The notes beneath the pieces were generated by a model. It had not been told where the DNA came from and did not search any database. It was given only the letters and a program-made list of their open reading frames with translations. This document shows, in pieces, positions 24,602 to 56,950 of a stretch of DNA of 64,000 nt. The stretch covers positions 37,676,617 through 37,740,616 of the forward strand of contig NC_080421.1 in NCBI RefSeq assembly GCF_029873635.1, read 5' to 3'. The DNA is from Malania oleifera (Eukaryota; Streptophyta; Magnoliopsida; Santalales; Ximeniaceae). A program made the translations under genes and the position numbers. The first letter of the stretch is position 1. Each line of letters opens with the position of its first letter.

Positions 24602-24610
24602 AACAACAAT

Positions 24611-24623
24611 TACTCTTATACCA
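24611..24623 (-). other. Primer-binding site of the TNT1-like Copia (mutated)
   Basis: The complement reads TTGGTATAAGAGT, against TGGTATCAGAGC in the standard initiator tRNA-Met site. It lies next to the LTR start at 24627. Mutations have spoiled the match. Confidence 0.75.
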
Positions 24624-24626
24624 ATT

Positions 24627-25220
24627 TGTTGTGATATGTGGGTTGTATAATGAAATTGCACAGCATAATAAACAACAAGAAACAAATAACACACACAACC
24701 AATAAGAACAACAACACGATTTACGTGGTTTGGCAAAGCCTACATCCACGGAAACAATGACACACAAATTTCACTAAGGAAATCAAAATGTACACAATAC
24801 ACTTCAATAACGATCATTATAACACTCAAAATATCCCCAGATGACATATATAGAGGTTCTTGAGAGGTCCCCCCCCCCCAGTTTTCCCAACCACTCAACG
24901 TTCAAAAATTCAAAATTCAGAAAAACAGCTGCAGCCCAGGCGCCTCTCGTCAAAAAACATAGGGCTTCGTCGACGAGCCCAAGAAGAACCTTCATCAATG
25001 AATACAGGGCTCTCGTCGACGATGCGAGAAGTCTGAAATTTCCTGCTCTTGGTAATTATTTGTCAATGAGCTTCATAGCCTTCATCGACGAACCTCTGTT
25101 GTTCCCTCTTCGACGAATACATGTCTTTCGTCGACGAGTCCTGCTGTGCTGCCCCTTTCATGTTTTTTCCTCCTTCCTTCTTCGCTTACCAAAATAGAAG
25201 TATAAGAGCCACAACTAACA
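24627..25220 (-). repeat. 5' LTR of the TNT1-like Copia
   Basis: It starts TGTTGTGATATGTGG beside the primer site and ends ACAACTAACA before the ttttt TSD. It carries the same CGTCGACGA words as its partner (24965-25140) and a run of 11 C at 24869-24879. Confidence 0.92.
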
Positions 25221-25225
25221 TTTTT

Positions 25226-25740
25226 ATATGAAATTAATCTGGTATTTTGACTTGTTAACCCGATCTGTTTGACTATGTTCGATCCATTGACCCATAACCC
25301 AAGACCTATCATACGGATCTAATCTAAAAGTCCAAGACCCAAGTCCAAATTGGACTTGGTTCCACTGTTCAATTCCATTCAAATAGACCCAAAGCCCAAT
25401 TGGGCTTGAGAGAGTTTAGTCTATCAAATCCATGTCCATAGGCTCACTATTGCATCAACAATCCTTGTCATTTGTCCTAAACCACTTAGGAGATGCCACG
25501 TTGCAGGATGACATTATGCTAACGTCACCCTATTGCAAAAATTCAACAACAAAAAAAAGGAACTGAGTGATTCCACGTGGCACGGTGATGTCATGCTAAC
25601 ATCACCCTGCTATAGTAAGTTGAAAAAAAAAAATTAAATAGCACGTGTCACCACTGTGGGTGGACACGTGGCCCCCACTAAAATGAACCGGTTGACCCGG
25701 TTCAACTCTCCTGAACCATTTTTTTTAGTTTGTTGTGTTT
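25226..25740 (+). other. Continuation of the probable Tat/Ogre-like LTR, with CACGTG hairpin and duplicated segment
   Basis: This follows the right TSD of the Copia and should continue the sequence interrupted at 13414. It holds an imperfect direct repeat with unit core CCACGT..GCA..GATGACAT.ATGCTAAC..CACCCT, near 25495-25540 and 25573-25612. A short inverted repeat (CACGTGTCACC/GGTGGACACGTG) lies at about 25642-25670. There is no ORF of note. Confidence 0.35.
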
Positions 25741-25749
25741 TTTGGCTCA

Positions 25750-26849
25750 TATTGTTGAGAAAATGACATATACAAAGGAAGAAGACATAGTAGAATCAGT
25801 ATTGAGGGAAATCGTCTACCGTTTGGTGCTAACTGTCAATAGTTTGGTTGAATTTTAGAAGACTAGCTCTCGACTTTCATCCGTCGAAGGTTCCGCGATG
25901 GTTTGTCTAAACATTCAGAGAAAATTTAGTCTCTTTATCTTTCCATTCAGTTTGACCATAAACTGTCGATGGTTTCGCTCGGGAGACCAGCACTGATTTC
26001 AAATTTTGAATACAAACATTAGTGTGGTTGGGTGCTTGGAGGGAAACTATAGTAACTCAAACCCAAAAAATAAAAGGAAATAAATATAAAAGAGAGTGAT
26101 AAAGGAAAATCAAAGAAAAGGAAGGATTTTGGTTTAGCAGAGCCCAAATTGTCGACGGTTTGACAGAGTGTGAGAAAAACCATCGACTGTTTCGGTCAAT
26201 TGGGCAAGTCAACTGGCAAAGTCTTGACGGTTTTTTGGGTACAGGGAAAACCGTCGACAATTTTCTCCAGGGCTATTCACCTATAAATTCATTTTTTTTT
26301 AGAAAATTCAAATTCTTCTCTTTTGCTCTGCCAGGGTTTTAGATTTTAGGGGTTCTCTCGAGTTTCTCTCGTTCTCCTAAGGCTACTCGGAGTATGTGCA
26401 TACACTCTGAGAGCGGTTCTTCCGTTCTGATTCGTAGGAGCTCCTTTTCGGTCGGTTCGAGAAAAGCTAGGGTTTTGGTTTTCGAGAGTCTCAGGTCGTT
26501 TTTCGAGAAATAGGTAAGGGTATTATATTATGTCAGCTAATCTTATGAGTTCTATTGGTTGAAATGCAGGATATGTTTATATGTATATAGTTATGACTTT
26601 TCTAGGGTTTCCGAGCCTAAGGTTCGGTTAACCGATGTTATTTTCAAAACCAACTGAATAAATTCGAATATGATATTTTTGGATTAAAGTACTTGGCTTT
26701 CTGAACATTTTCTCTAATTGGAATTTGTGATTTCAAACCTTAGACATGTTTTAATATGAACCAAAGGTAGTAGGGTTGATTATCTCTGTTTTTCCTGTAC
26801 CTACCTATGTATCTATATTTTTAGTAAAGTAACAACTTGATTCCTGAAA
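25750..26849 (+). repeat. Probable Gypsy LTR fragment, rightward
   Basis: The architecture matches the Gypsy LTRs at 32572 and 52947. The U3-like part holds repeated AACCGTCGACGGTT-type words (25880-26260). A TATA-like CTATAAATTC lies near 26281. A leader rich in TCTCTCG and TAGGGTTTT follows, then a GTAAGG splice-donor-like site near 26513. Neither end shows a clear tip or TSD, so the limits are approximate. Confidence 0.4.
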
Positions 26850-27460
26850 AAGCCCCTAAAACAATCATTCCAACACCCGCAGGGTTCCCTGGTCAACACC
26901 CTGAAAACAACATCTCCTAGAACTAAACTTCAGTATTTCTTCTTATATAACATTTCCTACAACTGTGATAAAGTAAAATTCTGAATAAAAAACCTTACCT
27001 TGAATCTGGGATGAATTTCAAGCTTATCCCACCGACGATCCACTCCAGCAGGTATACAGAGAACTTCCCCAGGAGTGTCGTGGTGGTTTCAGATCGTTGA
27101 TCTGGCGAAGAATGGACCCAGAAATTAAAAGAAAAGGGTAGGAAATCGAAGAAGAGAGAGAAAAGGAAATCTGCGCATGAAATTTCGGCCAAAAATTAAG
27201 TTTCGGCATATTTATATACTGGCCTTTGTCGACGAGTCACGTCACCTCGTCGACGAGGTCAAGAAGGTCGTTCGTCGACGAACATTTGTTCTCGTCTACG
27301 AAATTCAGAGATGGACAATTAGCCTCTTGGTAACTTTTCATCAACGAAATTCACCCTCGTTGACGAGCCTAATATGCCACGTCTTGCTATTCCTCCTTTT
27401 CAAATTTTCATTTTCCTCACTTTTTTATTATTAAATACTATAATTCTCTGGGTCACTACA
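26850..27460 (-). repeat. Partial Gypsy LTR, leftward
   Basis: The complement parallels the LTR at 52947: both have the block around GGAGATGTT/GGATGTTGAG, a 'cctgcgggtgt' stretch, and a Gly-Lys-Phe-Ser-like frame before the U3 words CGTCGACGA (27220-27370). The right edge GGGTCACTACA equals the tip style GGGTCTTTACA of the LTR at 47546. The left edge is truncated. Confidence 0.55.
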
Positions 27461-29485: not shown

Positions 29486-30818
29486 ATGGTGAGAGCGCCC
29501 TGCTGCGAGAAGATGGGATTGAAGAAAGGCCCTTGGAGCCCTGAAGAAGATCAGATTCTCATCAATCACATTCAGCTTTACGGCCATGGCAACTGGCGCG
29601 CTCTTCCCAAACAAGCCGGTACTCACAGATTCATTCAATTCTCGTTCATGCTTAAATATCCAATATTTCTCAAGTTTGATTTGCCGCACAGGATTGAAAA
29701 TTGAATGAGGAGTATGCAAAAATAAGAAACAAAATCGATTCCATTCCACTCAATTTTTCATTCTATGAATCAAGCCTGTAGTCAGTGCTCTCTTTTTATT
29801 TACCTTTTTGTTCAACATATCTACTCCTGCAGGATTGTTGAGGTGCGGAAAGAGTTGCAGGCTCCGGTGGACAAATTACCTGCGACCCGACATTAAACGA
29901 GGAAACTTTAGCAGAGAAGAAGAGCAAGCCATCATCGACTTACACGAAAAGTTAGGAAATAGGTGCGTGACATAGCTTCAGGGTAAATTAATTAACCCTG
30001 TATTTGATAGTTTCCATTTGGGACATTGACATTGAATATGAATGTGCCTGAATTTGAGCCAAATATAATATAAAATTGTAGTAAAATTTGCATAAATTTG
30101 TGCAAATTTAAGATTGGAAATTTTACATGGCTTATAGATCGAATCTGGGAAATCTGCATTCGTTAGAAATTCCTGTAACTAATCCTATCTCCGTCCAAGT
30201 TTGCTTGTGGGGATCCAACATAGCAACTCTAATTTTATATATTCTGGCATTTAAAATAGACCAAACACGAGATTTTTCTTTTGGGTAGTGCACGTCATTG
30301 ATTAATACTCTGTTTCAATTTCCAGATGGTCGGCAATTGCAGCGAAATTACCAGGGAGAACAGACAATGAAATAAAGAATGTGTGGCACACCCACTTGAA
30401 AAAGAGGCTGAAGCATGCGGAAGAGAGCTCAAAAACAGAGCCCCAACCCACGAATTCTCCGGCCGGCGAGAGGCCCGAAAGCCCAGGGTGCCGGCCGGTC
30501 TCCCCGCAAGAGTCTTCGAGCGACGTCTCGTCCATCACCACCGGAGAAATAAACAACGGCTGTACGAGCCCAAAGCTGGACTCCAGCCCAGGCGATGAGT
30601 TCCTCGTAATGGATGAAGATTTCTGGTCGGAGGTGCTGTCGGCGGACACCCCTGAGACAGCCGGTGGCGCACTTGAACTTGAGTTCCCATTTTCTGAGCT
30701 TCCGGCGATGGAACCTGGCTCTAGCATGTGCGAGAGCATGGACTTCTGGTACAATATTTTTACTAGGGCTGGGGACCTGTTGGATGAATCCTTAACATTG
30801 GAATTACCAGAATTTTGA
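29486..30818 (+). CDS. MYB14/15-like: R2R3-MYB transcription factor, subgroup 2 (MYB13/14/15 type), three exons
   Basis: Nuclear DNA-binding regulator, 251 aa. Exons are 29486-29618, 29833-29962 and 30326-30818. Both introns (214 and 363 bp) are GT-AG. The 133- and 130-bp first exons match the standard R2R3-MYB pattern. R2 (residues about 14-63) has Trp at 17, 37 and 57. R3 (66-116) has Phe70, Trp89 and Trp108. The bHLH-binding signature is absent from R3. N-terminal [15 protein letters not shown], the [17 protein letters not shown] segment and [11 protein letters not shown] fit subgroup 2. So does [10 protein letters not shown] (183-192), the subgroup's C-terminal acidic FW motif. The C-terminus is Ser/Pro- then acid-rich and ends in LELPEF. 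Known members act in cold, drought and defence responses and in phenylpropanoid, lignin or stilbene control. The exact role here is an inference. It is the only intact host gene in the window. Confidence 0.95.
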
Positions 30819-32571: not shown

Positions 32572-35156
32572 TGCAATGCGTTGAGACCCGAAAATTATAA
32601 TGATTAAAATAATTGGGAAAGATAATAAATAAAATAATAAGTAAACAATAAGGGAGGAAGGGGAAAATTTAAAAAGAAAAAGGTAGTAGACCTCATCGAC
32701 GAATCTTCTGACTTCGTCAACGAGTGATCTTCTATAGATCGTCGACGAAGTTCAATCCCTCATCGGAGAAGAAATCCCGACAGAGTGAATTTCAGATTTT
32801 AGATTTCATCGACGAATGTATCCTCTCGTCGACGAATTCCCTTCTGTGGTTCGTTGACGAATCCTGTCTTCTCGTCGACGAAGCCACATGATAACATCAT
32901 GTATAAGAAGATCTGAGGTTGTTTCTCCACGAAGAAATTCATTTTTTTTTGTTTCTCTCTCTCTCTCTAAAACGGTTCTCTCTGTCTTCTCTCTATGAAG
33001 CTGGCTCGGATTTAGCCTGAATCAACCAACGTGAACTGCTACGGTGTTCTAGGGGAGATTCTCTACACATCTAGCAGAGCAGATTTCTAAACTGGGCTTT
33101 CTAGGAATCACTCCAAAGTTGAGGTAAGGGTTAGGATTCTTAGTTTAGGGGTTTAAAATGTTTATTCGAGATTTATAGGTTGAGAAAATGTTGAAATTGT
33201 AAGTTATTTGGGGTTTATTTGATTAAACTAGGGTTTTTGATTCAGGGTTCGGGTGAGTGCCGCAAACATCATTTTGGGGTCTCTGTTGGCATAGTTCAGG
33301 AAAGCAGGTAAGGAGAATATATTAAATAAGGATTTTTAAGGAAATAACTGGTGAATAATGGAAATTTTATGTATATATGTATATGATTTTCACGTGGGTT
33401 CTAAAAAGCCAACCGTTTGAATTGTAAATTTGTGAACTTAGGGTTGTGCTACTAGATATTATTTGCAAAAATGGAAAGTTAAAATGACAAATTTTCTGGT
33501 TAGTTGTGTAAGAGATTAAATGTATATTTTCAATATATTAATGATGAATGTGAGTTGTCTTATTTTACAGTAAGCATATCAAATATGTTGTTAAAATGTG
33601 TGACATAAGTAAAATGAAGTTTTTATGTTAAACTATGATATATGTATGAGATGTAGGAAATACTGGAAATGCATTGAGAATTAAAATGTGATATGATTTA
33701 TTTTGCATGTGTTTTATAATGTTAGATTTCAATGTATGGTTTGAGAATTCCGGTGGACTAGAATAGGCACAGCACTATTGTGGGTATTTATGGAAGCGCT
33801 AGTGCACCCACACATCTTGGAGAGAGTGTGGAGATGGGATGGTCAATTGTGCTGGAAAGGGTAGGGTCCCCCTAGAGTCTACACCAGTATAGGAACAACC
33901 AATCAGACCTACAGACTGTAGAATGTGGATGATTTAACTCTAGAGGGCTGACTAGAGTTAAGTTCAGCCTACGAGCCGCACAACTCATCATGAGGCGGAA
34001 GCATGATAGTGATTTCTTCATCGGTATAGAAAGTTCTAAACACATAATTGTTAATTTAACCTTTGATAATATGAGAATAATAGATATGAAAATAGCATAT
34101 ATGGGAACAACAGATATAAGAACAGCAGATAGGAATGATATGAAAACAAAATATGTGAAAGCGGGCATGAATACAAAAATGAGAAATGTAGAATATCAAT
34201 GTGAATGTAATGAATAACACATAGATAACAACATAAAGAGTAATGTAGTAAAGTATCATCAGTATTAAATATAGTAGTATTATATGTATTTGGGGTGAGG
34301 TATACTCTTCGCCCAAGGGTTTACTGAAAAAGGTGAGTGCACAGATAGGTATCAGATGTAGCTGTGGACTGCATAACGTATTAGGGAAGAGGGAAGCTAT
34401 TTGTATGGGCGGGTAATCTTCCTTATTCTCAGGAACTTCTGCCAGTAAACCTTTGTGTGAATGTGTGAGTATAAAATGAACTAACCAACTGAGGGCTTAT
34501 TGAATAAGGTGCCCTGATATGCTTCAGTTGTAACTATAGGTTGCATAAGGTATCAGAGCAGAGGGATGCTACTTGTATGGGCAAGTAATCACCCCAATCC
34601 TTGGAAATTCTAATTGGTCAAATACCTTACATGTATTTGAGTAGGAACAGAAAATGATTTCATAATTATGCTTTTATTTGAAAAGGATAAATATATATGT
34701 TGTACACAAATCTCATGATAGTCACACACTGATTTAATGTATTCCATCCTTACTAAGATGTGCCTCAGCCGATAGTTGAATTTCGTTTTTTTTTCAGGAC
34801 CTCTGCGTGATTGAGCTTAAAGAGCTCGGGGCTGTTATAGCGTTTTTGAGAGAGTGGGTATAAACTTTTGGATGTGTATATTTTTGGCTTTGTTTATGTT
34901 TTCAGAGATGTATATATAAATGTTTTTGAATGCTGGATGTTGGAAAGTACCTTTTGAGATTATAGATATGTAGATACTCTGGTATTTAATTAAGAAGTTG
35001 TTATTAGTTCCGTTGCGTAACTGATATAGAGTCAGGTACAGGCAATAGAACACGTGGCACTCAGGCCCCAATTGGCGGGTTTGGGGTGTCACAAGATGAT
35101 ATAAGAGATATTTCAAATAACACTTTGGACCCTAGTTTCGGGTTCAGAGCGTTACA
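32572..35156 (+). repeat. Solo LTR of a Ty3/Gypsy element (about 2.6 kb)
   Basis: The ends form long imperfect inverted tips: TGCAATGCGTTGAGACCCGA at the left, and the complement of the right end reads TGTAACGCTCTGAACCCGAA. Such GACCCG-type tips and 2-3-kb LTRs are typical of Tekay/Del chromoviruses. The U3 part holds about nine CGTCGACGA-type words (32690-32885). A TATA-like GTATAAGAAG lies near 32901. No internal domains adjoin it. A TSD is not evident (caact left, taatg right). Confidence 0.65.
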
Positions 35157-38520: not shown

Positions 38521-41500
38521 GCTTCTCCTGAGCCCAACACTGAGTTTCCTATTATTGCTCGCACTCCTATTACAACTGCCCCATTAGGCTCTCATCCTAT
38601 GCTCATGTGAGCCAAAGCTTGTAATTTTAAGACTCACCACCTTGCGCATCTCGGCCTTGTGAAATCTTCTAGACTTCTTACTACTCTTATAGCATCCACT
38701 GAGCCTAAAGGACTCAAATTAGCTACTAAGAATCCTACTTGGCTTGCTACCACGGACGAAGAAATTCAAGCCCTGCAAAATAATCGTACTTGGATTTTGG
38801 TTCTTCAACCCACCAACACCAACACCAACATTGTAGGTTCTTCCTTGACGAATCTATCGAGCATCTTAAAGAACGTCTTTTTGCTAAGAGCTACCCACAG
38901 ATACCTGGTCTTGACTACATTGACACCTTTAGTTCTATCATCAAGGCCACCGCTGTTCATCTTGTTCTTTCTCTTGCTATAACAAACAAATGGTCTCTTC
39001 GCCAACTTGATGTAAAAAATGCATTCCTCAACGGCCTTCTCCCTGAACATGTTTATATGGAACAACCCTTGGGTATATTGACCCTCGCTTCCCTAATCAT
39101 GTTTGTCAATTGAAGAAAGCTCTTTATGGCCTAAAGCAAGTGTTGAATTTTTGGGTCCGTCCCATGTTTTGATTATGACAAACTACAGTATCTCATCTGT
39201 GTACTTTGAGTATTTGAATAGATTTATTCTTCTAAGCACGGATGACAGATGAGAAATGGAAGCTGAGAAGCATACCCCGGCGTTTTCCATGGAATTGCAA
39301 AGGAGCGCATGAAGACCGATCTTTATTTTTAGTTGTATTATTATATTTTATTTTATTCATGTTGGGTCTACAATAATTCAAAGGTCTGTAATAATGAATG
39401 CATGACATGCATGATGGGGACTATAAGTTCAAGACCGTAGTTTGACCTTAGGGATCACCCTTTAGTCGACCGACGCCGGATTTTTTCGGTGTCCTAAAAA
39501 AAGACCTAGAATGACCCTAAGACACTCAACATGCATAAACATAATGTGTTTATAAGGATAGGGTGATTGCATAAGGAAATAGAACTGAAATGCATTAAAA
39601 ATACATGTTTGGTCGACTGTACTTCACAAGTATAAATCTGTCGGTTGACCGAACTGGTCACCGGGTTAACAATTTAACCATTGCATGGTCGACCGAACCC
39701 TACCCAGTCCAAGTCACCTGGTCGACTGAACTCTGTCTCGGTCAATAGTTTGACCACACGGTCGACCGCACCTATTGCTTAAGCCAACCACCTGGTCGAT
39801 CGAGTTCCCACGTGTGTTTTGCCAACTGACCGGTCGACCGAACCACTTAGTTAAATCAACACGATCGACCGAACCGCGCGGAAGTTGAAAAATTGCCTTG
39901 GAACCTTGTTGTATGGTCGACCGAACTTCCAATTCAAATTTTACCCGATCGACCGAACTTGGACACTTGGTCAACCAAATCTCACCTTTGGTCGACCGGT
40001 GCTCTTGGGTTGCCATATTATTTTTACCGCGGTTAAAGGTTTTAAACAAAGCTAATTTTCTTAATGATTTTTAAAACAAATTTAATAATACCTTGTGTAT
40101 CCCCAACGACTATAATTTACCCCTTTCCTATATATATGTCTTCATTTGTCCATATTAGAGGGATTTAGGACAAAGACTAAGAAAAATATTCTCTCAAATA
40201 TTCCAAGCCTATTTTTCACATACTACTTCCATACACTCTCATCCTCTGAATTTCTTGATTAACCAAGCTTTGTGAGAGTTTCTATTGTGTTTATTGTAGC
40301 TTGCTTAATACTCTCAATTTTGTGCTTGTAGTTTGTTGTTGATTTTTTGAGAGTTAAGCAAAGAGTTATCCCACTAATTTATTTCAATAAATCATGTGTT
40401 GGGAAAAACTCATAAGCTTAAGGATCTTTGCATTGTCATTGCAAGACTCCTATAGTTATAATTTTTGGTGTGCAAATATTTTTCTAAGTTATAATATTTT
40501 CCAACTACTCTTGTGCTTATTTCATTGAAGGAAAATATTTTTAGTTAGTTTGAATGTTTAATTAGAATCTTTGAAACTATGATTTGTTATTGAGATTTTT
40601 TATAACTTGTTTCAAAGAAATAGCTTGATAGAACACTCTTGAGCATATACATGATTATTCATTGCTGAGTATTTGCTTGCACAAAGATCATTACACACAT
40701 ACTACTTGATATATTGGCATTATTTAGAGAGTACTCACATTAAACTTCATAGAGCTTATAGTTCTTATCTCTTCGAAGTGCATTGGTTATTGCATGCACA
40801 TATTGGTAGAAATCTACTTGTTGGAGAAGCATTAAAATTGTACACAAAATTTATATTATAAATCTGTTGTATTCCAAGTGCGGTCTGAGGGGACGATGAT
40901 CTAGCCCGTAAGGATCAGTAGGGCCTTCTCCGCCCTATAAGGAGAATTTGTAAAGGTTGAAGTTAGCCATGTGCTAATTGACTTGACTGTAATCGGTGCC
41001 GCTCCACCCGTGAAGTGAACCATTAGTGGAATCCTCGGGCTTGCGAGCTAGAGGTGGGGACATTGACACAGTTGGCCGAACATCCAATAACATTTCTTGT
41101 GCGTGCTTTTAATTTTCACATTTTAAATTCCAGCACATGAATGTTTATATTTTACTATTGTGAATGATTGGGTTTACAATTGCATAGACAGACCCTAGGT
41201 TGAATGTATCGCTGCTATTTAGGTCAAACCTAGGAAAAAGTTTTAAATACCCAATTCACCCCCCTCTTGGGAATACACCAAAGCTAACAGCAAGCCCCTC
41301 GTGCCTGGTTTCAGCGTTTCAGCTCCTTTCTCACCCACCTTGGTTTTTATTGCAGTCGTGCAGACACATCACTCTTTGTTTTTCATAAGCAGTCTAACAT
41401 TATCTATTTACTTCTCTATGTTGATGGCATCATTATTATAGGCAACAACTCCAAGCTTCTTGACAGTTTTACTTGCAAGCTCAATTCAGAGTTTGCTACC

Positions 41501-42083
41501 TAGGATTTGGGTTCTCTCTGTTACTTTCTTGGTCATGAAGCTACCTCCACCACTGATGGCCTTTTTATCAGTCACCTGAAATATGCATGGGAAATTTTCA
41601 CACGTGCTTAGTTACTTGATAGCAAACCAATCCACACCCCAATGGTTGTTTCCCAGCACCTGTCCGTTGATGGTCCTCTGTTTTCGGATCTCAAACTTTA
41701 CAGATCTTTCGTTGGTGCTTTTCAATATCTGACTATCACAGGTCTAGATATTGCTTATGTTGTCAACTATGTCAGTCAATTTCTCCATTCTCCAACTGGA
41801 GATCATTTCCTTGATGTCAAACGTATTCTTTGCTATATTAAGGGCACACTGCATTTTGGCCTCACTTTTCATCCATCCACCGCTTCTGGTGCTTTAGTTG
41901 CTTACTCCAATGCAAACTAGGCAGGATGCCCTGATACTTGTCGTTCTACCTTTGGTTATTGTATTTATCTTAGCGATAATTTGGTGTCTTGGAGTACCAA
42001 GAAACAACCTATTGTTTCTCACTCCAGTTGTGAATCTGAGTATCGTGCCTTGGCTTTCACTGCTGTTGAATGACTCACTCTAA
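38521..42083 (+). pseudogene. RE1-type Copia reverse transcriptase and RNase H, split by a solo LTR
   Basis: Left of the LTR: EPKGLKLATKNPTW, EEIQALQNNRTW and NTNIVGS (38700-38840). After a frame change come QIPGLDYIDTFS and KWSLRQLDVKNAFLNGLLPE (38895-39050). The host frame breaks at gcaag (39136-39140) and resumes after 41294. There the catalytic box reads YVDG instead of YVDD (about 41415), so one catalytic Asp is lost. Later pieces (41642-41920) carry the LSVDGPLFSD and FLHSPTGDHF regions and the RNase H start, where the expected Asp residues are Asn and a TAG replaces Trp. Clearly dead. Confidence 0.88.
39141..41289 (+). repeat. Solo Copia LTR (2149 bp) with exact TSD gcaag
   Basis: It starts TGTTGAATTTTTGGG and ends CACCCCCCTCTTGGGAATAC...AAGCTAACA. 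The 5-bp TSD gcaag is exact at 39136-39140 and 41290-41294. Removing the LTR and one TSD restores the reverse transcriptase sequence of the host Copia. A TATA-like CTATATATAT lies near 40130. About a dozen GGTCGACCGAAC-type words lie between 39470 and 40010. The same family occurs at 3710, 45919, 60541 and at the LTR ending at 63358. Confidence 0.95.
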
Positions 42084-43378: not shown

Positions 43379-46300
43379 GAAATAGAGAGGGGGAGAGAGA
43401 CCAGACAGAGAGGAGGAAAGACGGCAAGATAGAGAGGTAGAGAAAAGAGAGAAAATGAGGGAACTGAGAGGGATGAGAATGAAATGGAGAGAGGCTAAAA
43501 AAAACTTTTAAAGCCCCTTTGAGGAAGCCCTGTTCCTAGCGAACTACTCCCCCAAGCTTTTCAATTCGGCCTCCAAATCTCTTGCATGGTCGGGTCACAT
43601 CATGACCCAAGCCTTTTTTTCTATTTGTCATTTTTGCTCTAGCTACCTCAAGTGCATGTGTCTTCATTTCAAAGCCCACACGACCCATCTTCATTTGTTT
43701 AGCTCCAAAGCGTGACTGACCTTGCCTTTTGATTAAATTTTCAACAAGGCCCTCTCCATACTCATGCATGGTTTGGCTTTAATTTCCAAAAGATTATTCT
43801 TTAAATATCCAGGAAAACCCCGAATGCTCATGTCTTGTCTTCGATGCACATGACTCTGATTTGAACTCCAGCGTACGTACACGACTCTCCATGAACACGA
43901 CTCATTCACGTGAATTTTAATTTCAACTTTGACGTCCAAAATTTATCCTATAATAATAAAACACAAATGCTCGTAAATTTTTTACAAAAATAAGATAATT
44001 ATCTAAAAATTATCAAATAAGCTCACGAATTATTATAATGGGCATAATCAGACATTAAATTAAAAATATAATCATCGATGCATGAATTTAAATGTCTAAT
44101 TACGCATCTTTGACGCAAAATCACACCCTCCAACTAGAGTTTTGCTAGTCTCTAGCAAATAACATGAATGAAATCTAGGGCGTACCCATAAACACTAATT
44201 CCAATGAATTTTAAATGAATGCACATGCAACACAATCGTAGCATTTCACATACAGAAATATAAAAAGATTACACACAAGCTCATTCATACACAATTCATG
44301 CAACTCTGAAGCTAGTTACTCATGCAAGTTTCATCATTATATAGCCATTAAGAATAGTATACTCACATAAAGTTAACAAGCAATACAATTTAGAGTTAAT
44401 GTAGTCATATAAATTTGAGTATAAATAGGTGAAATCTCAAGGTTTGTGTAATGTGTATGACTCATTACAACCAGGATACCAGTGGACACCTACAGAATGG
44501 TTGTTTTGACTCGACCTAACTGGTATACCCTAAAAAACACTCAAAAAGGATGAGTTCACTTGTCATATATGAGGAGGAGTGTCATGATCAAACATCTCAC
44601 ATATTGCAAGGAACAATGTTAAATGTATGGAGTGGACTAGTCTAAAAAGGATCCAGCCTATTTGTGAGGTGTCGGGTCCTTCACCCTAACATCTTCTCAC
44701 CTACTCACCATATCCATCCAAGACCACCCTAGATCAACTTATTCACAAACCAGACGTAAATACATCTGAGGCATTAGGTGATTGAAGAGTCTTCATATGT
44801 GGGGAACATATGTCGTGTCCCTGACTTTTTGTGGTATTTGTGTGGGGCAGGTATTAACCTTTCACTTCATTCATGTGCATTTCTATTTCTTTTTTTTTTT
44901 TTTTTTTTTCTGCTCATTCTTCAATTTCTTTCTTTTAATGGTCAATTAAGACAATCATTACACTTCTTTTTTTGTCTTCATACCACCCGTGTGAATTAAG
45001 CTCGAACAGTAGTCCATGAACTAAGTCTATCTCTAAGGGTGGCTCAGCCTTCACATCTTGAGTAGGCTATAAGACCTAGGTTTCTATCTCCCCACTAGAT
45101 GTCACCTATAAGCTAACAAGTAAAAAACAGAGACTAGTGTAGAAAGGATTGTCTAGAAGAAAATAAAACCAAGTTTCATGAACCTTGATTTGATGTTAAC
45201 ACTTAAAAGAACGATAAATAGCTCAAGAATACCTCACAAGGTGTCATAGTCGCCACAAGTGTTCTCTTTGTAACCCTAAGTGCAACAAATCACGTGAATG
45301 TGTATATTCAGCCCATGAGATACGATGTAAATATAAGAGTTTATGTAGCCTGATTAACACGAATGAATCATCAGTCAACCATCAAGGAGTTACAAAGCCA
45401 TATAAAGAGAAACTACACATAAATAACTCGAGTGTGTAACTCTTAGGTTATATGCAAATATGTGAAGGGTATAAGTCAGTATTAATCATGGCATAATAAT
45501 CCATCTTCAATGATCTTTATTTCTTTCTTTCTTTCCTTCTTTCACGGCCGATCGTTCTGAAATGAACGTGCCTTCCCCGGTTAACTGAACTGACACGTGG
45601 CTGAACCCCAACAACTTGGTTAACTGAATCATTAGTTCAAAACTGACTTGGTCAACCGAACCTTAGCAAATGGTCAACCGAACTTGCCTGGTTGACTGAA
45701 CCTCGAAGGGTTCGAAATTGCCTTGATACTTTCAACCATATCTCCAGCTCAAAATGGCCACGGTCGACCAAACTCAATAATATGGTCGATCGAAACCTCT
45801 TGGGTTGGTAAAATTTTTACCACAGTAAATCAAGGTTAATTGTAATTAAACTCAATTAAACAATTTGAAAAATACCCTTGATGTCCCTAATGGTTATATT
45901 TTTGCCCAACTCTATATATGTTGAAATTGGTGTATTCCCAAGAGGGGGGTGAATTGGGTATTTAAAAATTTTCTTCCTAGGTCAAATTAACCAGCAATAG
46001 TAATGTACAACCTAGGGTCTGTTTTAGTATTTCTCAATCATTCACAATATTTAAATCATGCACACATTCATAAATAGTTAAATATGAGCATACATGTGCA
46101 GGAAATTAAAGTGCAGGAATTTAGGAGCAGACACAAGATGTGTTATCGGGGTTCGACCAATATTGCCTACATCCCCACCTCATGCTAACAAGCCAAAAGA
46201 TTTCCACTACGACTCACTTAACAGGTGGAGCGGCACCGATTACAACACCTTACCAGGATGGTGCACCTAACTTTCCTAACCAGATCAAAGCCAAACCAGG

Positions 46301-47545
46301 ACTATTCATAGGGCTGGTCACCCTCTTCCAACGATACGTCAGAAATACAACAGATGTTCAATATAATTTTTTGTGTACAAGGAAATGTTCTTTTAAACAA
46401 GAAGATTATGTACCAATATGCATAAGCAATAATCAATGCACCTAAACCAGATAGGAACTATAAGCTCAGTGCAAACAATGTGTAATAACACTCTATGTAA
46501 TGTCAATAATCAATCAAGTGCAAGAGTGTATTACTAATCTATCTTTGAAATAATATGTAAATATATTTCAACCACAAGTAGGGTTTCAAATATTTTTATA
46601 GAATATACTCAAAATATCTCTAAGATGATTTCCTTAAAATTCTAGCACAATAAATATTTAAAATCAAGCTTGTTTGAAAAAAATTTCACAAAGTATAAGA
46701 ACAAGCCTTTGAATACTTGCAACAATAATGCAAGATTCACAAGCTCTAGATAATATTCCCACTAAAGACTTACGAATTATCACAAGGGGACTCTCAAACT
46801 CACTCTCAAAAAATCAACATCAAACACATACAATGAGAGTGTGAGTCAATATAAACAATCTCAATAATACACTTACCAAAGGATTTGAATAAGTAGGATG
46901 AGTAAGAGATGGTGTTGACTTTGGTGTATTCCCAAGAAGGGGGGGGGGGGGGGTTAGGTAAATTGGAAATTTAAAAATTTATCTCCTAGGTTAAACTATC
47001 CAGCACCAGTATATACATAACCTAGGGTCTATCTATGCAATTCAAAATGCGTAGATAAATATAATGTGCGGAAATTAAATCATGCGCAACATGCACAGAC
47101 AATTGAGAATAACATACATGTGCAGTAAATATAAAATGTTGAAATGAAAAGTGTACACATGATATGTTATCGGGGTTCGGCCAATACTGCCTACATCCCC
47201 GCCTTAGCTCGCAAGCCCGAGGATTACCAATATTGCTCACTTAACGGGTGGAGCAGCACCGTTTACAACCAAGTCAATTAATTGGGCTGACCTCAACCTA
47301 CAACTATACCTCGAAGCTAATCCGAGACTTTTACCAGGGCAAGTCTCCTTCTTCCGAACACACGTCGGGTATACAATCAGATATACTTTTTCGTACAATG
47401 AAAAGTGCTTCTAACACAAGCAGATTTGTACAACAATTCAGCACAGTATAATCAATGCACACCAATAATGTAAGAATTATAAGCTCAATGGTGTATATGT
47501 GCAATCAACACTCAAAGCAAAGATTATCTCAAGTTTAAGTACAAG

Positions 47546-48898
47546 TGTAACAACCAAAAAATTATACCATTTTTTTTTCATTTAATATATAAATTACTCT
47601 GATACCCCTGTTATACCTGCTATAGCATCTCAAGCCTCAGATGGGCACTGTGGTATCCCTGTACACAAATTGACACACCTATGCAGCGGAAAACATAAAG
47701 TCATACACCCATATTTACAATACTAGAATTTAGTGTTTCCAAACCATATATACATATTTACACATCACCTCAGTACTATTTGCTCAAAAACATAATCCCC
47801 TAAATACACTTACCTTACCCTATAAGCTGGGCAAAACAAAAGATCTCATTATTTGCAAGCCTAATCTGCTCGCCTAGCTGGTTCACCTAAAAAATGTTAA
47901 ATTGCTGGGATGAGACGACGCTCAGTAAGTGAAAATATGCTATTACTAGTGTGTGGTGACCGAGTTGCATAAATACTATAATGACAATATCTGAAACTGT
48001 ATAAGCTGGCAAGTCAATATAAAGTATAACTTACATTTACCATAGTTTAAAACATAACTGTATCATCTGAGTTTTCTACTTTTCATACTTCTAATATCAT
48101 ACTATATTTGCTAAAAATTCTATAAATTTGTATACATATACATAACTGAGATTTTTTCCTGGGAAACTGTGTATCATGATTTAACCTCTCATGATAGGGT
48201 TGTGTGACCCGAAGGCGGAACTTAATCCTGGTTGGCCTACCAGGTAATTCAATTGTACTCTACCAATCCTCAGCTTGTCCAAACTACATCCTTTCATAAG
48301 CATGGAACTGAAAAACTACCTTGTCAAACCGGGCCCCCTCAACCTAGAATACTGGGGAGACTACAAACTCTCCAAGCACGATTGACGGAATCCACATACT
48401 ATCTGAGATATGTGGTTGCACTCTAATATGAAAATAGCAACGATACCATACTCTACTGATTGAATCTATCTGAAGTAATTCATTAGGGATTTGATACTGT
48501 ATATACTATTACTATAATTACCCTACTGTTTTCATCATGTTTCCAAAATAACCATAACACTATAAATCTAATTTGTAAACACTCTAATGTTTGAATAAAA
48601 TAACTGTATGTCTGACTGTAATATTTGACTGAATAATCTGTAAAGTCCGAATGTTATGGTTTTAGAAAACATGACATTCTGTAATTATTGTAAAATACTG
48701 GTCTGTTAAATATCTATAATACTTGTATGATAAATAACTGTCTAGTTAATATCTGTCTATATATATATATACTGTAAATCATGATATTTTGAAAAACTAC
48801 GTAGCTTATGTATCAAGCAAATATCTACTCAGGCTACACAAATAATACAAATCATATTCAGGAAAAACTAAACAATAGACTGATATATATATATATAG

Positions 48899-48929
<31 letters not shown>

Positions 48930-49786
48930 TTTCTAGTAAACTTGCTAAAATTCCTAGCATAGCATATTTCCCTTACCTAATTGGCTGGGAAGCTGGCCTC
49001 TAACTTAATCCTCACTCTCACAGCGTACTATTCCCCAAAATCCTGAAATAATACACATGCATATTTCCAATAAATCAACTATTTTTCTCCGAGCCTACAT
49101 ACTCATAAATTTCTGAAATATAATTTACCCGCACTTTTAAAAGTACTCACTGGGGTTCCCAACCCATATCTGCAAAGTCCCAAAACACCTTATTCCTGAA
49201 AATATAATACTCAAATTTTACTTCACAAAACTCCAGTATATTCTCATATAACTTAAAATCTAAACTCAAATAAGTCTAATACAACTAAAAATACCAAATT
49301 ATTCAACTTACCCAAATTTTGGGATAGTACCCAAGTTGGCCTAACCAACAATCTACTCCAACAGAGTTGAAGAGAATCTTCCCAGGAGTAGTGTGACGGC
49401 TTCTGATTGTCGAACTGGCAAAAACCGAAGTCGGAATTGTAGAGAGAAGGGGAGAGGGTTGATTTTTTAAGAGAGAGAGACTTCCCTTTGCAACATTTTG
49501 TGAAAAAACCGATTTTGGCTTACTTATAAACCTGGATTTGTCGACGAGTCCATAAAGGGAGTTTGTCATCGAACATGAATCCTTTGTCGATGAACTTCAA
49601 GCTCTATAAACCCCTCTCGGTAAATTATCGTTGACGAGACACGTGTCCACGTCGATGATCCCTAGTAAAATACTCATCGACGAAATCCTTGAATTCGTCG
49701 ACGAGACCCTATAAGTCCCTTTTTGAAATTTTCATTTCCTTCTTTTTTTTATTATTTAATTACTATAAATTCTCCGGGTCTTTACA
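47546..49786 (-). repeat. Gypsy solo LTR (2241 bp) nested in a Copia LTR
   Basis: It starts TGTAACAACCAAAAAATT and ends TCTCCGGGTCTTTACA. The flanks acaag (47541-47545) and ataag (49787-49791) form a TSD with one transition. The intact sister LTR shows the uninterrupted site near 57614, confirming the insertion point. CGTCGACGA-type words cluster at 49535-49710. Tips and layout match the LTR at 52947, so it is the same Gypsy family in the opposite orientation. Confidence 0.9.
48899..48926. repeat. (CA)n microsatellite
   Basis: About 13 CA units preceded by a short TA tract, inside the Gypsy LTR. Confidence 0.9.
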
Positions 49787-51096
49787 ATAAGAGTGTATCT
49801 ACAAGCTAATATTTGAAACTATGTAAAGATAAAATCTCAATCAAAGTTTAGGGTTTCAAAGATTTGTACCGATAGAAATTTAGAATATCTCAAAAATAAT
49901 TTTCTCAGTATCAAAGCATAAGGAGATATTCAAATATGAGCTTGTAAAAATTTTTTTGCGCACACAAAAAATACAAGCCCAATGAGTCTTGCAATAATAA
50001 TGCAAAGACTCACCTATCTATAAGATTTTTCCCAACCAAAAATTTATTAGATGAAATCAAGGGGAAAAAATCTTTGCTTAACCCTGAATCGAAAATCAAA
50101 TATGCGATACACAAACGAGGGTTTTTAGCATAATAGAACAATGAATAAACACTCACAAAGCTTTGATTTCTCAAAAGAATGGTAGTATATGAGGGTATGG
50201 GGTTTGTATATGGAAATATGGCTTAGGAAATTTCAAAGGATTTTTGCTTAATCTATTTTCTAATTATCTACTAATCCAAGTAAATGAACCCTTATATATA
50301 GAATAGGTTAAAATTATAACCGTTGGGGACACATAGGGTATTATTAATTTTTTAAAAAACAGTTTAATAAATTTAACCATGTTTAACTTAAAATAACCAC
50401 GGTAAAAATTAAAACAACTCGAGAGTTTTGGGCGCCTGACTTGTGGTTTGGTCGCCCGAACAGACACATTAGAAAAAAGTTGATTTTTGAAGTTTGGGTG
50501 CCTAAATAATGGTTCAATTTTCTGACCAAAGGCCATTTCCATTATGTCGGAGGTTCGGTTGCCTGGTTCTGAATTTGGTAGCCCGAGGAATTTTTGAACA
50601 CGAAGTATGGGCTACCAAGTTGGTGGGAAAAGTTAGAATTGTGATTCGTTTGACCAGGGACACTACATTCCTTTTGGTTTGGTCACCCGAAACCAAGTCA
50701 ACACTTTGACTGGTCAATGGTTCGGTTGCCCGAAGCCTCACTAATTTTATCCTATTAGTCCAGTTTTACTTCAATTGATTCCCTTGATAATGTATGTGTT
50801 TTTGGGGACATCTTATGTGTATGTGCAAGGACCTAGGGTCTTTTGAGCTTATTGCATCTACATGCATAATATGCAATGATTATTACAGACCTTTTAAAAA
50901 TTACAAACCCGAAAGAATGGAATATAAATTACAACAATTTAAACACTTTGTCTTCATCATTTTCTTCGAGTCACCATATGCACCATATGATCTTGCCCAT
51001 TTAAGTAAGACTGGTCCTGCACACAAACTCAAGGTAAGCATTAAATACCAAAGTATTTTTCATAATCAAAACAGGGTATGACCTATAAGGTCAACA

Positions 51097-51119
51097 ATCT
51101 CCCCATTTTTGATGATGAC
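51097..51119 (-). other. Polypurine tract of the gag-only Copia
   Basis: The complement reads GATGATGACAAAAATGGGGAGAT next to the 3' LTR, if taken from slightly further out; its AAAAATGGGGAGAT core is the typical Copia plus-strand primer. Confidence 0.8.
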
Positions 51120-52946
51120 AAAAATCGTATACAAAGTGGGTACAACCAAGAAATGCCGCCCTTGAAACTATGCATAAGAGAATGTAAAGATTTTAAAAGT
51201 TCAACCATTTTCCCAAGATACCCAATTTTTCTTAAGTTCTTCCCCTTTTGGCAACAGCAAAAAAGGCTAGTAAAATATAACTGGTTTTTTTAAGAATATA
51301 GCAATTAAGCACACAAACAACATAATTAGTCATTCAGGTTTAAAATGACACAACAAACATGATTAGACCAGAATTATACACAAACCATTGCAATTGAAAC
51401 ATATCATAAAACCCATGGAAGATTTGAGTTTAAAGCACACGACATATGATAGCAAATAGTTGGTTTGAGCACAAACACAGTCAAACAAGTTCGCATACAT
51501 TTACATATGAAGTTATCGAACCAGTTATGCAATTTAAAAATATATGTATATAATATTAAGGCAAGAGATAAAGATTTTTTGATTTGAAAGAATTTCTTGT
51601 CAAACAATAAAAATTGATGTAAATAGATATATATGTATATAATAAATATATATCCCCCTTTGGATGTTGTCAAAAAATATTGGGGGTGCTTGCTGAAACA
51701 GAAGATTTTAATTTAAAGCAAGTAAGCACAAATTTTCTGGTTTGTCAATTAAGCACACAAACTGTAACCAGAAAAACACAACCACAATGATCCTAAAGAT
51801 ATCAGACAAATTACAGTAAGGATCATATGGCAAAACAGATGACTGTGGCAAAAATAAACATCATACATCAAATTAAGATTTTCAATAATGTCATTTCATT
51901 TAAGCACAATCCACAGTGAATTCACAATAGATCTAAGCTAAAAATATTTGTGAGCAAAACAAAATAAGAATTTATGTTTAGATGCTCCCCCTTTCAATTT
52001 GAATTATAGCTTAAATGAAATAAGCTACTTATACTCATCAACATTGATTTCACAAGGTATGTCAAGAGTATAAGCCATTCATTTTAAATCTCTTAAAATA
52101 AATATACTAATAAAGATTAATTTACTTTTTATGCAACTAGTATAGCTATCCCTATGGATTACACATGCATCAGAAAATTTATATTAAGGCATGATTTTGC
52201 GTTCACAACCAGGAACGATTCGTATCTAAATATATAGCTTTAAGAGTTGGACATGATGTTTGTGAGTCTTTGAAGAGCCTCAATATTTCAAAAGAAACGA
52301 AAATGATGCATATGGGTCCTTTATGCTTTTTTTTCTAGGGAATGGAGTTTAGCTCCCCTAATCATTTGATGATTATGTGAGGATGAAATTTAATATTGAA
52401 TTAGGTTCACTCATCCTTTCAAAAATATTTTAACTTTCATTTAATTATAATCATCTTTAGACAAGGTTTTACTTTTGGGAAATTTTTTGTCAAAATTTCG
52501 GCAGCATGCCGTCTGTAAATCAGACATTTTCCCATAAAACATGTACCTGATAAAGGTTTGTTTTCAGCAAGATATTCATATAAGTCATGCAACAACCTAA
52601 GATCTACTACCGGCATGCAATTCACATCACTATATCCGTCATGCATGAGGCATTCTAGACTAAGCATGCAATCATGCAGTGATCAACAACTTAATCAAAA
52701 TATAATCCATCCATCAATGAATTTAAATAGTAGATCAGAAGATAGATTTTGAGTTTAGCACAGGCTGTTATTCATTAAGGCATTCAAGCATATAGTATGA
52801 TTATGAGAGCATTTTTTAATATAAATAGTCATGAAAGATAAATGCTCCCCCTGAGTTAAGCCATCAGCTGAATTTTGCCTTTTCTACTTTTCAAATTCTT
52901 TAACCAAGTGTTTTAAGATTTTCAATGATACAGACTCGGCTTTACA
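51120..52946 (-). other. Non-coding part of the gag-only Copia internal region
   Basis: No pol or env-like domain is visible. Part of it (about 52490-52690) matches a segment of the CACTA element at 19262-19505. A 76-codon frame at 52667-52437 overlaps that shared part but belongs to no family I recognise. Confidence 0.5.
52490..52690 (-). repeat. Segment apparently shared with the CACTA element
   Basis: The complement carries GCATGCTTA, TTAGGTTGTTGCATG, GGGAAAATGTCTGATTTA and CGGCATGCTGCCGAAA in the order found at 19262-19505. Origin unknown. Confidence 0.55.
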
Positions 52947-54905
52947 TGTAACGACCCAAAGGATAATGATATTTAAATAATAAAGAGGGAGGAAAATGGA
53001 AACAGTAACAAAAGGAGGCACCCGACTTCGTCGACGAATGCGACGTTGCATTTTGGATGTGATAATCCCAAGAATTTTCCAAGCATCGTCGACGAACACA
53101 GGGGTTTAATCGATGAGTGTTCTTTAGGATCTCGTCGATGAGGTCTCGTCTTGTCGACAAGAAGATACCGAGAGAGAATTTTTGGGAAGTCTGAAATTCG
53201 TAGATGAGGGTGCAAGTTCATTGACAAACTTTCTACAAGACTCGTCGACGAGGTGACGTGGCTTGTCAACGAATTCCATAGTATAAATAGCCTAAATCTG
53301 GGTTAAATGCATAATTTTTCTACCAAATTCACACTCTCTCTCTCCTACGGCTCCACCTCCATCTCTCTTCAATTTTGGTCCTGTTGTTCGGAAGATCGAC
53401 AATCTAAGGCCACCATGATGCTCCTAGGGAAGTTCTCCCTAAGTCTGCTGGAGCAAATCATCGGTGGGACGAAGTTGGATTTCATCCCAGATTTAGGGTA
53501 AGGTCTTTTATTCAAAATTAGGCTTTTCGGTATTTGTAGGGAATGACGTAGACGTAGAAATAGTAATATTTTGTTTTGGCATTTATGGTTTTCAGGATGT
53601 TGAGTGGAGAACCCTGCGGGTGTAAGACCCGTTACGATAGGGGGACTTTAGCAAAAATCAGGTAAGAGAAATATGCTATGCTAGGTAATACTAGTATGAT
53701 TTCAGTATGAAATATATGTTTTCATCAAATTATTATTTCATAGCAGGAACTTATACAGTTTATCTAATACATTTAAAATGTTTTAAATTACTATGTGGCA
53801 TGAGAATATGGATATAGTACAGAAACATGTTTTTACAGTATTTTTAGGATTTTGTTTTATAGTATTTTCAGAATACCATGATTATACAGTTTTCAGTACC
53901 ATGACATACAGTTTTACAGTTTATTTCAGAAATACAGTTGATACAGATACAGTTTATCACAGCGTCATGGTTAATACAGATATTATAGAATCATGGTAAA
54001 ATAGATAGATTGTATATAGTAATGTATTATTTAGTATCAGACCCTGATGGATTAGACAGTAGAGCATGGTGCCATTGCTATATATAGATATTCAGTATAG
54101 AGTGCAACCACCTATTCAGATAATACGTGGTATGTAGGTCGATCAAATGCCCAGGAGCGGACAGGCTCCCCATCAGATATGGGTTGAGGAGGGTTGATCA
54201 GACTGATGGAGTATAGTGGTTTATTCTTGATTGGCCAACTAGGGTAGATCCCACCTTCAGACGGCACAACCCTGTCATGAGGGGTTAAATCATGACATAC
54301 AGCCATCTGGGGAAGTTTTCAGTTATTATTATATGTATATGCAGTTTTACAGTAACATATGACGTACTTATGTATAATAGAAGTATTATGTATAGAAACC
54401 TAAAAATACAGTTATGTTAAGCAACATGGGATGGTGGTTGCTATATTATTTGTACTATATTTTCAGATTCAGTTATATTTGTTTATATAGAAACAGATCT
54501 TCTCAGTATTGTTACTCATTTGCCACACACTAGCAATAACATATTTTGTCTTACTGAGTGTCATCTCATCCCATTACCTAAACATTTTTCAGGTGATCCA
54601 GATAGGCAAGCAGATCAGGCTCACAAATAGAGGGGCTTCAGTATTACCCTACCAGTAGAGTGAGTATTTTTAAGAGTATGTATGTATAGCCCTAGCCAGT
54701 TGAGGGTATTTTGGGAAGTTGTAATATATGTATATTTTGAGGATCCTTTTAGCACTCTGGTATTGTATATTTTCTTGATGGTGTTTATATGAATTTTGCT
54801 TCTTGCTGCTTAGGTTGATGGATTGGTTTGATCTAGTTGGTATCAGCGCTTTATAAATTTTATAGTATATATATAAACCCCCCAGTTAAATAGTAGGTCG
54901 TCACA
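52947..54905 (+). repeat. Gypsy solo LTR (1959 bp) nested in the gag-only Copia
   Basis: It starts TGTAACGACCCAAAGG and ends GTAGGTCGTCACA; the tips are inverted to each other. The flanks ttaca (52942-52946) and ataca (54906-54910) form a 4-of-5 TSD. U3 words CGTCGACGA cluster at 53020-53280, followed by a TATA box (GTATAAATAG, near 53281) and a CT-rich leader. A short frame GKFSLSLLEQIIGG near 53430 matches one at 27060 on the other strand, linking it to that partial LTR. Confidence 0.88.
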
Positions 54906-55756
54906 ATACATGATTAGGCTTAGCGGTCCAAAAAGTCACAATGAATGTTTCTTTCAAAGTCATAAGCCAACAATGCCTATTCTCTTATGAATCTCAATGC
55001 GTGTAAGAGGAACATGATTAAATACTCTTAAGAATTGAATTTTATGTTAAGTTTGAAAAGTATTCATTATGAGTGAACATTTTCCAAAATATTTTTATGC
55101 TTAGTAATCATATCCAGGTATGAGCAAAGAGTGTCTAGGAGAGTATGAATTTTTGAATACAACTCTTTGGACAATGGTATGTATCCTTTAGATATAATTA
55201 TAATTATGAAGCAAGGATACAACTGGAGAGTAGAAGGAATGTCTTATGATGAGCACTCAATATATATTAGTTATTTATGATCAATAGTGCTTCAACCTAG
55301 ATTGATGGCTAAACATTTTATTAGGCATTTTAGGCTTTCAAGATGAGTTTAGGACAAGATGTTTAATTAGAAGGATTCATTTTCTATAACTCAAACTTGT
55401 GCAATGGATCGAGTATGCTTAACTTTAGATGATCATATTTAAGCATGAGTTAAGAAATTTTGACTTATTTGCCAGGCAAATAATGCTTTGTCCATTTGGA
55501 AGTGAATTTTATTCAGTTATGTTATAGCCAATGTTTTCATATTTCATCCAATCATTATGATATGTATTCGTGTTAAGTTTAGATTGGATATTTTATTTGA
55601 AATTTTTTATTGGCTAGATTTTCTAATGATCTTAGTGTATAATGATAGTGTATAATGAATGTGCATACTAAAATTTGACATTTTAAGTAAAGACCACTTC
55701 CTAGCCTTTTGGTCATCGCTACCTCCAAACCTAGGAACTAAGGATGGATTAAATGA

Positions 55757-56911: not shown

Positions 56912-56950
56912 CTCGATCTTTAGCAAAAACGTTTAAGTCAGTGCCATGAT

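Follow-up and report, generated by a model that had tools for sequence, protein, structure and literature searches.

Why should the long terminal repeats (LTRs) of unrelated retrotransposon superfamilies carry clusters of one short, GTCGAC-centred palindrome? The question is raised by a 64-kb stretch of the Malania oleifera genome (C5:37676617-37740616, hereafter the window), in which an initial annotation had listed 13 stretches, together 4.0 kb, with such clusters in Copia and Gypsy LTRs, and had suggested convergent selection. Here we describe these clusters in the window and in the searched genome (1.494 Gb). The clusters are real, but comprise several distinct things: arrays in Sirevirus LTRs (group A, with words A1 and A2), arrays of the word YTCGTCGACGAR in a classic Copia element (group B) and in Gypsy-type LTRs (groups C and D), and two minor groups (E and F). 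Groups B, C and D have in common a fixed register of word positions, and it is this register that forms our main finding.

The window contains 43 copies of GTCGAC, where 100 dinucleotide shuffles of it give 3.26 +/- 1.89, and the runner-up among CpG-containing palindromic hexamers, CACGTG, occurs 15 times; the clusters thus stand out from a dinucleotide-matched background. The listed stretches hold 38 of the 43 copies, although three of them (at 50430, 58250 and 61820) hold none. Exact counts exceed the maximum of 300 own-stretch shuffles in eight of the 13 stretches and equal it in two (49535-49710 and 25880-26260); with one mismatch allowed just five of the 13, which are themselves CpG-rich, beat their own shuffles. 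The list was also incomplete, as it left out a further A1 array (45579-45795) and two words at 2686-2720. Outside the listed stretches GTCGAC is found in A-type LTRs (39465 and 45763), in another Sirevirus-type LTR (2712) and, within chance expectation, in coding sequence of element B (22341 and 24411). Genome-wide, where exact words were counted against the same pattern read backwards, the palindromic YTCGTCGACGAR, counted once, is present 121,972 times against 244 reversed; the corresponding figures on both strands are 37,121 against 82 for GGTCGACCGAAC and 10,882 against 13 for GGGCGACCGAAC.

The window features of groups B, C and D are as follows.
24624 to 25219, minus strand: 5' LTR of element B, with an eight-word array at 24946-25138 (domain scan, alignment, words).
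13412 to 14002, minus strand: 3' LTR of element B (B13), with an eight-word array at 13730-13922 (polypurine tract, words).
21412 to 24469, minus strand: coding remains of element B, gag_2, Pol_BBD, gag_pre-integrs, rve, SH3 and RVT_2, in Copia order (domain scan).
52947 to 54906, plus strand: C solo LTR (C53), TGTAACGACC..GGTCGTCACA, with an array at 53027-53273 and a TATA 8 bp past the last word.
47546 to 49783, minus strand: C solo LTR (C49) nested in a Sirevirus LTR, with an array at 49537-49705.
26840 to 27459, minus strand: C LTR, truncated (C27), with a six-word array at 27225-27367.
32584 to 34600, plus strand: D LTR (D32), 3' end approximate, with an eight-word array at 32692-32882.

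Rather than the 30-60 bp first given for the CGTCGACGAA arrays, word intervals in these LTRs are mostly 19-25 and 44-51 bp and follow a fixed order. The typical cassette has eight YTCGTCGACGAR words spaced about 21-25-21-46-21-25-21 bp apart, and its central gap holds TACCGAGAG or a variant of it. Intervals are 21,25,22,47,21,25,20 in B13, 21,25,21,46,20,25,21 in D32, 21,25,19,47,20,24,21 in C53 (plus one extra upstream word), 21,25,21,44,21,25 in C49 and 19,46,20,25,21 in C27. B13 and D32 match in all eight slots, a result reached by 0 of 400 arrays with random gaps and 4 of 400 with permuted intervals. To look beyond the window we drew on 26 ten-kb stretches of the genome (10 picked for the A1 word, 10 picked arbitrarily and 6 for the B/C/D word), in 17 of which we found 19 arrays of at least five words (8/10, 3/10 and 6/6 stretches, respectively). 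The register emerges in many arrays from unconstrained word calls, and a fit of slots to the expected register, with +/-3 bp per slot, places 15 arrays on it: 3 B (two of them the LTRs of one element), 7 C (four lacking one or two slots) and 5 D. Pairs among the first 100 of the 121,972 genomic YTCGTCGACGAR words likewise cluster at distances of 19-21, 24-25, 44-46, 65-67, 91 and 108-117 bp and are scarce at 26-39, 47-62 and 72-85 bp.

The central gap offers a second line of evidence. TACCGAGAG, or a sequence one base off, begins at +4 after word 4 in all three B arrays and in 8 of the 15 other arrays checked, and of seven exact copies on both strands of the 26 stretches (16 of which had been picked for words) six lie just past a word. 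Central-gap identity is 0.50 between B and C and 0.48 between B and D, against 0.31-0.32 when shuffled, so that the initial view of between-word sequence as not conserved is wrong for this part of the CGTCGACGAA arrays. Short spacers behave differently: identity at the same versus other slots is 0.78/0.38, 0.44/0.21 and 0.45/0.25 within B, C and D, and only 0.245/0.215 (B-C), 0.280/0.263 (B-D) and 0.256/0.224 (C-D) between them. Between families, therefore, the short spacers are nearly random, and words, register and central gap persist. Alignment with the words masked gave a weak signal for B against D (2/200 and 3/200 shuffles reach the score), 4/200 and 14/200 for B against C27, and no significance over shuffles for B against C49 and C53; in-register spacers without the central gap were significant for both B-C27 comparisons and for one of two B-D comparisons only. 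It was accordingly the in-register test together with the central gap, not masked-word alignment, that carried the case for a B/C/D link, and the eight-slot register with an element at the same offset in its central gap points to one ancestral cassette.

That this cassette occurs in two superfamilies follows from the adjoining coding sequence. Element B, whose LTRs are 88.5% identical, has gag_2, rve and RVT_2 on one strand between its LTRs, the polypurine tract (PPT) AAGGTGGAGAT directly upstream of the 3' LTR, and a short linker with a single PPT, AGGTGGAG at 14012, about 100 bp downstream of the end of the reading frame as judged by eye. It is therefore a classic Ty1/Copia element, its domain order and the PPT adjoining the 3' LTR marking it as of non-Sirevirus type. 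B spans 11.8 kb, and its interior includes tandem and inverted repeats (14580-15765 and 20442-21147), perhaps a nested insertion. A further B-type LTR was found in a sampled stretch (L040), beyond which its own interior lies.

The Gypsy label given to the C and D LTRs is borne out at other loci of the same genome. In the window itself, C copies are solo or truncated (complete C LTRs measure 2.0-2.2 kb), neither C nor D copies have an internal part, and no Gypsy domain was detected in the frames scanned, which left out 14101-15600 (bar one open reading frame), 24631-27400 and 57401-64000 on both strands and 15601-24630 and 46601-57400 on the plus strand. In the sampled stretch L043, an array LTR starting at 4889 (array 4975-5164) is followed by the primer-binding site (PBS) TGGTATCAGAGC at 7048; Retrotrans_gag, RVP_2, RVT_1 and RT_RNaseH_2 come next, all in the orientation of the LTR. 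A C-type LTR in L021 precedes a PBS-like TGGTATCAAAAC, Retrotrans_gag, Ty3_capsid and RVP_2, and in L046 two D-type LTR pieces (97% over 430 bp, one meeting the end of the stretch) flank Retrotrans_gag/Ty3_capsid, gag being the sole Gypsy coding domain found between them. L046 also contains an RVT_2 Copia element that ends in an LTR with TTCGTCGACGAA words and TACTGAGAG elements. Array LTRs are thus assigned by adjoining coding sequence to Copia in two cases (B in the window, L046) and to Gypsy in three (L021, L043, L046), and the annotated presence of the word in both superfamilies stands. L038, with Retrotrans_gag about 2 kb downstream of a C-type LTR, is a weaker but likely further Gypsy case. 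A Copia SH3 domain in L034 lies downstream of a D-type piece, too near to be part of its element, which we read as nesting. The C/D LTRs also carry a PBS-like GGTATCAG(A/C)G motif, in the two complete copies some 60 bp short of the 3' end; such sites lie at about 54838-54850, 47597-47610 (minus) and 34547-34560. From the look of their ends, the C/D LTRs may belong to Del/Tekay chromoviruses.

As first annotated, the words lie in the U3-like (unique 3') part of the LTR, upstream of TATA. In the window copies the first word is 79-109 bp into the LTR. Past the last word, the first TATAA/TATAT is reached after 6-20 bp in 12 of the 16 C, D or unassigned arrays (the other four pieces gave none) and after 89-93 bp in B arrays. 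Deviations from YTCGTCGACGAR are mostly of one kind: of 62 in 45 window words, 47 are CpG transitions (C-to-T or G-to-A).

Group A arrays are a separate matter, and occupy the following positions.
39141 to 41289, plus strand: complete solo Sirevirus LTR of type A1 (A39), 2149 bp (sequence, RVT_2 halves, words).
4090 to 4514, plus strand: A1 word array (YGGTCGACCGAACY; word scan).
45579 to 45795, plus strand: A1 word array, the one absent from the earlier list (word scan).
59188 to 59581, minus strand: A1 word array (word scan).
50446 to 50735, minus strand: A2 word array (TCGGGCGACCGAACY), without GTCGAC (word scan).
58271 to 58594, minus strand: A2 word array, its LTR ending at 56966 (minus; word scan, junction).
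61825 to 62190, minus strand: A2 word array (word scan).

Each of the 21 pairings among the seven A-type LTR pieces gives an alignment, 20 of them at about 60-68% over 140-2,300 bp and one at 87%, and here too the sequence between words had wrongly been taken as not conserved. The Sirevirus LTRs with GGTCGACCGAAC and those with GGTCGCCCGAAC are thus homologous, and carry the known Sirevirus repeated motif (RM). A39 carries 13 words scoring at least 9/12 upstream of TATA, above the at least eight words per LTR that characterise the RM. In LTR sense the A1 word reads YGGTCGACCGAACY, with T at position 3 in 42/42 words kept and the GAAC side mostly downstream (50 sense versus 12 antisense matches at 10/12 or better in the seven pieces); the A2 word reads TCGGGCGACCGAACY, with G at position 3 in 20/21 words kept and two weaker sites with T falling below the cut, the two letter counts having been made with different target words. 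The outer C and G of the CGG-CCG signature are present in 13/42 and 31/42 A1 words, and the A2 word retains the TCGG/CCGA arms alone. GGTCGCCCGAAC, described as self-complementary, is directional, with its symmetry limited to these arms.

A1 and A2 arrays have part of their spacing in common. A nine-word chain links A4 and A61 (random gaps 0/400, permuted intervals 8/400), followed by matches of A4 with A57 (2/400 and 19/400), A59 with A61 (15/400 and 84/400) and A39 with A61 (34/400 and 55/400). In every pair but the closest, A50-A57 (20 of 21), words resemble each other more than spacers do, though this is partly built in because words were chosen by likeness to a common word. It is suggestive, not proven, that dispersed A words at matching places changed in concert while their spacers diverged.

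Individual copies retain further Sirevirus features. A39 runs from TGTTGAAT to GCTAACA between target-site duplications GCAAG (39136-39140 and 41290-41294), within a Copia RVT_2 (reverse transcriptase) gene whose halves lie at 38862-39077 and 41288-41647; its word array spans about 39609-40001, with a TATA at about 40130. The 16-bp Sirevirus junction CA/ATTGG/TATCAGAGC is exact in one A2 LTR (56966, minus) and was not found in the other A copies examined, which are solo, 3' or truncated copies. A C-rich integrase signal, CACCCCCCTCTTGGGAATACACC, lies about 20 bp from the 3' end of A39 and of the LTR ending at 56966, and the 61- and 50-kb copies have lengthened C runs. The start of the A2 LTR with the array at 50446-50735 is preceded by a PPT-like AATGGGGAG; PPTs reading AGGGGGAG lie at 52852 and 51992 (minus), 0.9 and 1.8 kb upstream of the LTR starting near 51096, in a region that also holds a Gypsy-type LTR, and the terminal PPT at the LTR near 51096 reads AATGGGGAG rather than AGGGGGAG. 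Across 45500-63400, related Sirevirus LTR pieces are densely nested, most of them in minus orientation, and one hosts a Gypsy-type solo LTR.

Two minor groups were also seen.
25810 to 26262, plus strand: group E, degenerate AACCGTCGACGGTT words at irregular spacing and in a differing register, with a TATA downstream at about 26280 (word scan).
2686 to 2720, minus strand: group F, two words (CTCGTCGACGAA and TTCGTCAACAAA) in the U3 of an LTR (word scan).

E aligns with C49 over only 63 bp and with D over only 123 bp. The F LTR ends at a Sirevirus-type junction, CA/AGTGG/TATCAGAGC (1926, minus), its words are YTCGTCGACGAR-like, and a relative in the sampled stretch L030 has three words at 25 and 21 bp, a hint that a YTCGTCGACGAR-like word may also have reached Sireviruses. 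One ancestral U3 for all groups was rejected: no A piece aligned to B, C or D at E 1e-3 or better, and B or D registers match those of A no better than random. Common ancestry of U3, which the initial annotation had set against its own proposal, is seen for the GGTCGACC and GGGCGACC LTRs by full alignment and for B, C and D as far as register and central gap show; A, B/C/D and E have little beyond the six-base core in common. L030 also contains, next to LTR pieces, a tandem array (3935-5648) with a period near 296 bp and units about 94-97% alike, and in the window MYB DNA-binding exons (PF00249, PF13921) at 29500-30400 (plus) represent the sole likely host gene in the scanned frames.

What, then, maintains the register? 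We consider it probable that the arrays as a whole are cis-regulatory elements of U3, and that those of B, C and D form a protein-binding U3 enhancer of fixed geometry, common to Copia and Gypsy through LTR recombination. Each word would be a site for a host DNA-binding protein that, given the dyad symmetry, is dimeric or acts on either strand. From about 80-110 bp inside the LTR and upstream of TATA, the array would drive transcription, and would also expose the element to silencing. The CGTCGACGAA cassette, two blocks of four sites at fixed spacing around the TACCGAGAG-like element, may already have existed in both a classic Copia lineage and Gypsy lineages, or LTR recombination may have exchanged it between them, and it would have multiplied together with its carriers. 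Kept words and kept spacing amid random spacers would be the expected trace of a multi-site protein complex, and CpG decay that of methylation after insertion; words may thus look degenerate because methylated CpGs decay to TpG/CpA. We lean, by a somewhat smaller margin of belief, towards the fuller account in which the eight-site cassette around TACCGAGAG moved between Copia and Gypsy and came to dominate the genome (about 122,000 exact words), with both superfamilies dependent on the same host factor. Of the proposals made in the initial annotation, the host-factor idea fits best.

A candidate factor is suggested by promoter lists, in which GTCGAC appears as CRTDREHVCBF2, a variant of the C-repeat/dehydration-responsive element (CRT/DRE), and RYCGAC as CBFHV (PMC6628100). 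The same core is found on both strands in intact A1, B, C, D and E words, but the match is of six bases only and is absent from the A2 word. A literature search for a GTCGAC-binding factor yielded no more than the PLACE name, given in a list of promoter elements. A DREB-type factor as binder of these LTRs is a lead and no more, since the U3 of tomato Rider, which has a CBF site, goes with a response to drought, not cold (PMC6762207).

Several observations weigh against the enhancer account. With permuted intervals the match of B13 with C27, C49 and C53 is not significant (reached by 206, 299 and 348 of 400), and with random gaps it is partly so (8, 23 and 48 of 400). Seven of the 15 non-B arrays, D-type or unassigned, have only 4-7 of the 9 bases of TACCGAGAG, and the Copia array of L046 has a rearranged register, 21-83-21-21-21. 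There is little slot-specific spacer likeness between families, and the case for common descent therefore depends on register and central gap. Since the A2 word has lost RYCGAC, one DREB-type factor cannot explain all families, and Rider, despite its CBF site, is not cold-induced.

Two rivals, both unlikely in our estimation, deserve most attention. In the first, palindromes are kept or tolerated as U3 RNA hairpins from which small RNAs arise, a role proposed for maize Sireviruses, where small-RNA hotspots overlie the palindromes (PMC5311732, PMC10760457). We folded one array per group A1, A2, B, C and D: four fold better than shuffles, with z of -3.95 (39597-40013, A1), -3.00 (32684-32890, D), -2.49 (24935-25145, B) and -2.43 (53020-53285, C). 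The A2 array, which keeps its words, does not (z -0.98, 16/100 shuffles at least as good), nor do hairpins need a fixed register with random spacers. The RNA-hairpin idea of the initial annotation is weakened accordingly; hairpins are more likely a by-product, which small RNAs may exploit as in maize. In the second, the same word and spacing evolved independently in each lineage because one host factor demands both. The short spacers of B and C/D bear little trace of common descent, and A, B/C/D and E, which differ in flanks and registers, have little in common but the GTCGAC core. Set against such convergence, as originally suggested for the CGTCGACGAA group, are the common register of B and C/D, the occurrence of TACCGAGAG or a single-base variant of it at an equal distance past word 4 in Copia B and C arrays, and the raised central-gap identity.

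Tandem duplication of a 46- or 115-bp unit, which would give regular spacing without selection, is more doubtful still. Cassette blocks do lie about 115 bp apart, and block 1 of one B LTR is 72% identical to block 2 of the other over 78 bp; yet the register holds within a few bp between families whose spacers are near random, and word deviations are mostly CpG transitions. That CpG-rich stretches yield GTCGAC by accident would suit the eight of 13 stretches that fail to exceed their shuffles at one mismatch, but is ruled out by the window shuffles, the large excess over the reversed words and the fixed register.

How do these arrays relate to known systems? The Sirevirus RM (Bousios et al. 2010, PMC2829016) resembles group A in its many short CpG palindromes in the upper LTR half, upstream of TATA, and its Vitis word, CGGTCGACCG (Table 3 there), contains the A1 core and has the CGG-CCG signature in common with it. 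The 2010 description named no binding protein for these arrays and reported them as Sirevirus-specific and absent from classic elements, a restriction that B, C and D do not follow: their arrays have another word and a fixed register, and lie in classic Copia and Gypsy LTRs. Maize Sirevirus LTRs likewise have a palindrome-rich, variable regulatory part (PMC5311732, PMC10760457), unlike which the A2 family here lost palindromy and kept its array. In maize, the Copia motif also ranks first among the motifs of structured Helitron regions (PMC10760457), so that, as here, one palindrome occurs in two unrelated transposon types, but the passages describe no fixed multi-site register. The BII boxes of Tnt1 (PMC3316501), U3 boxes of a classic Copia element stated to bind defence-induced factors, are like the B array by description, and the passages on them make no mention of Gypsy elements. 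Concerted evolution of noncoding regulatory sequences is the topic of work on endogenous pararetroviruses (PMC5491270). In titles and abstract openings we recognised no report of promoter exchange between LTR superfamilies. What we recognised in the literature searched was earlier work on Sireviruses and Tnt1, without a register spanning the two superfamilies. Sirevirus arrays were thus already known, and the array of fixed register in both superfamilies may be new.

Public collections added little. Three-word patterns had no match in public genome or viral contig collections, and the C-LTR motif had none in public viral contigs. A word-pair pattern matched 10 IMG/VR contigs, with few words each and 9/10 of them GC-rich, and on these grounds we read the matches as chance rather than as relatives. 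GGTCGACCGAAC-like words form clusters in two viral contigs (L011:2371-2459 and L012:3299-3379), both of which have their first two words 25 bp apart.

Together, a spacing code in two superfamilies and its very many copies make the function of such arrays directly testable. Our findings suggest that promoters, besides coding genes, may pass between LTR retrotransposon superfamilies; if true, a single host signal or a single silencing pathway could then act on the two superfamilies together.

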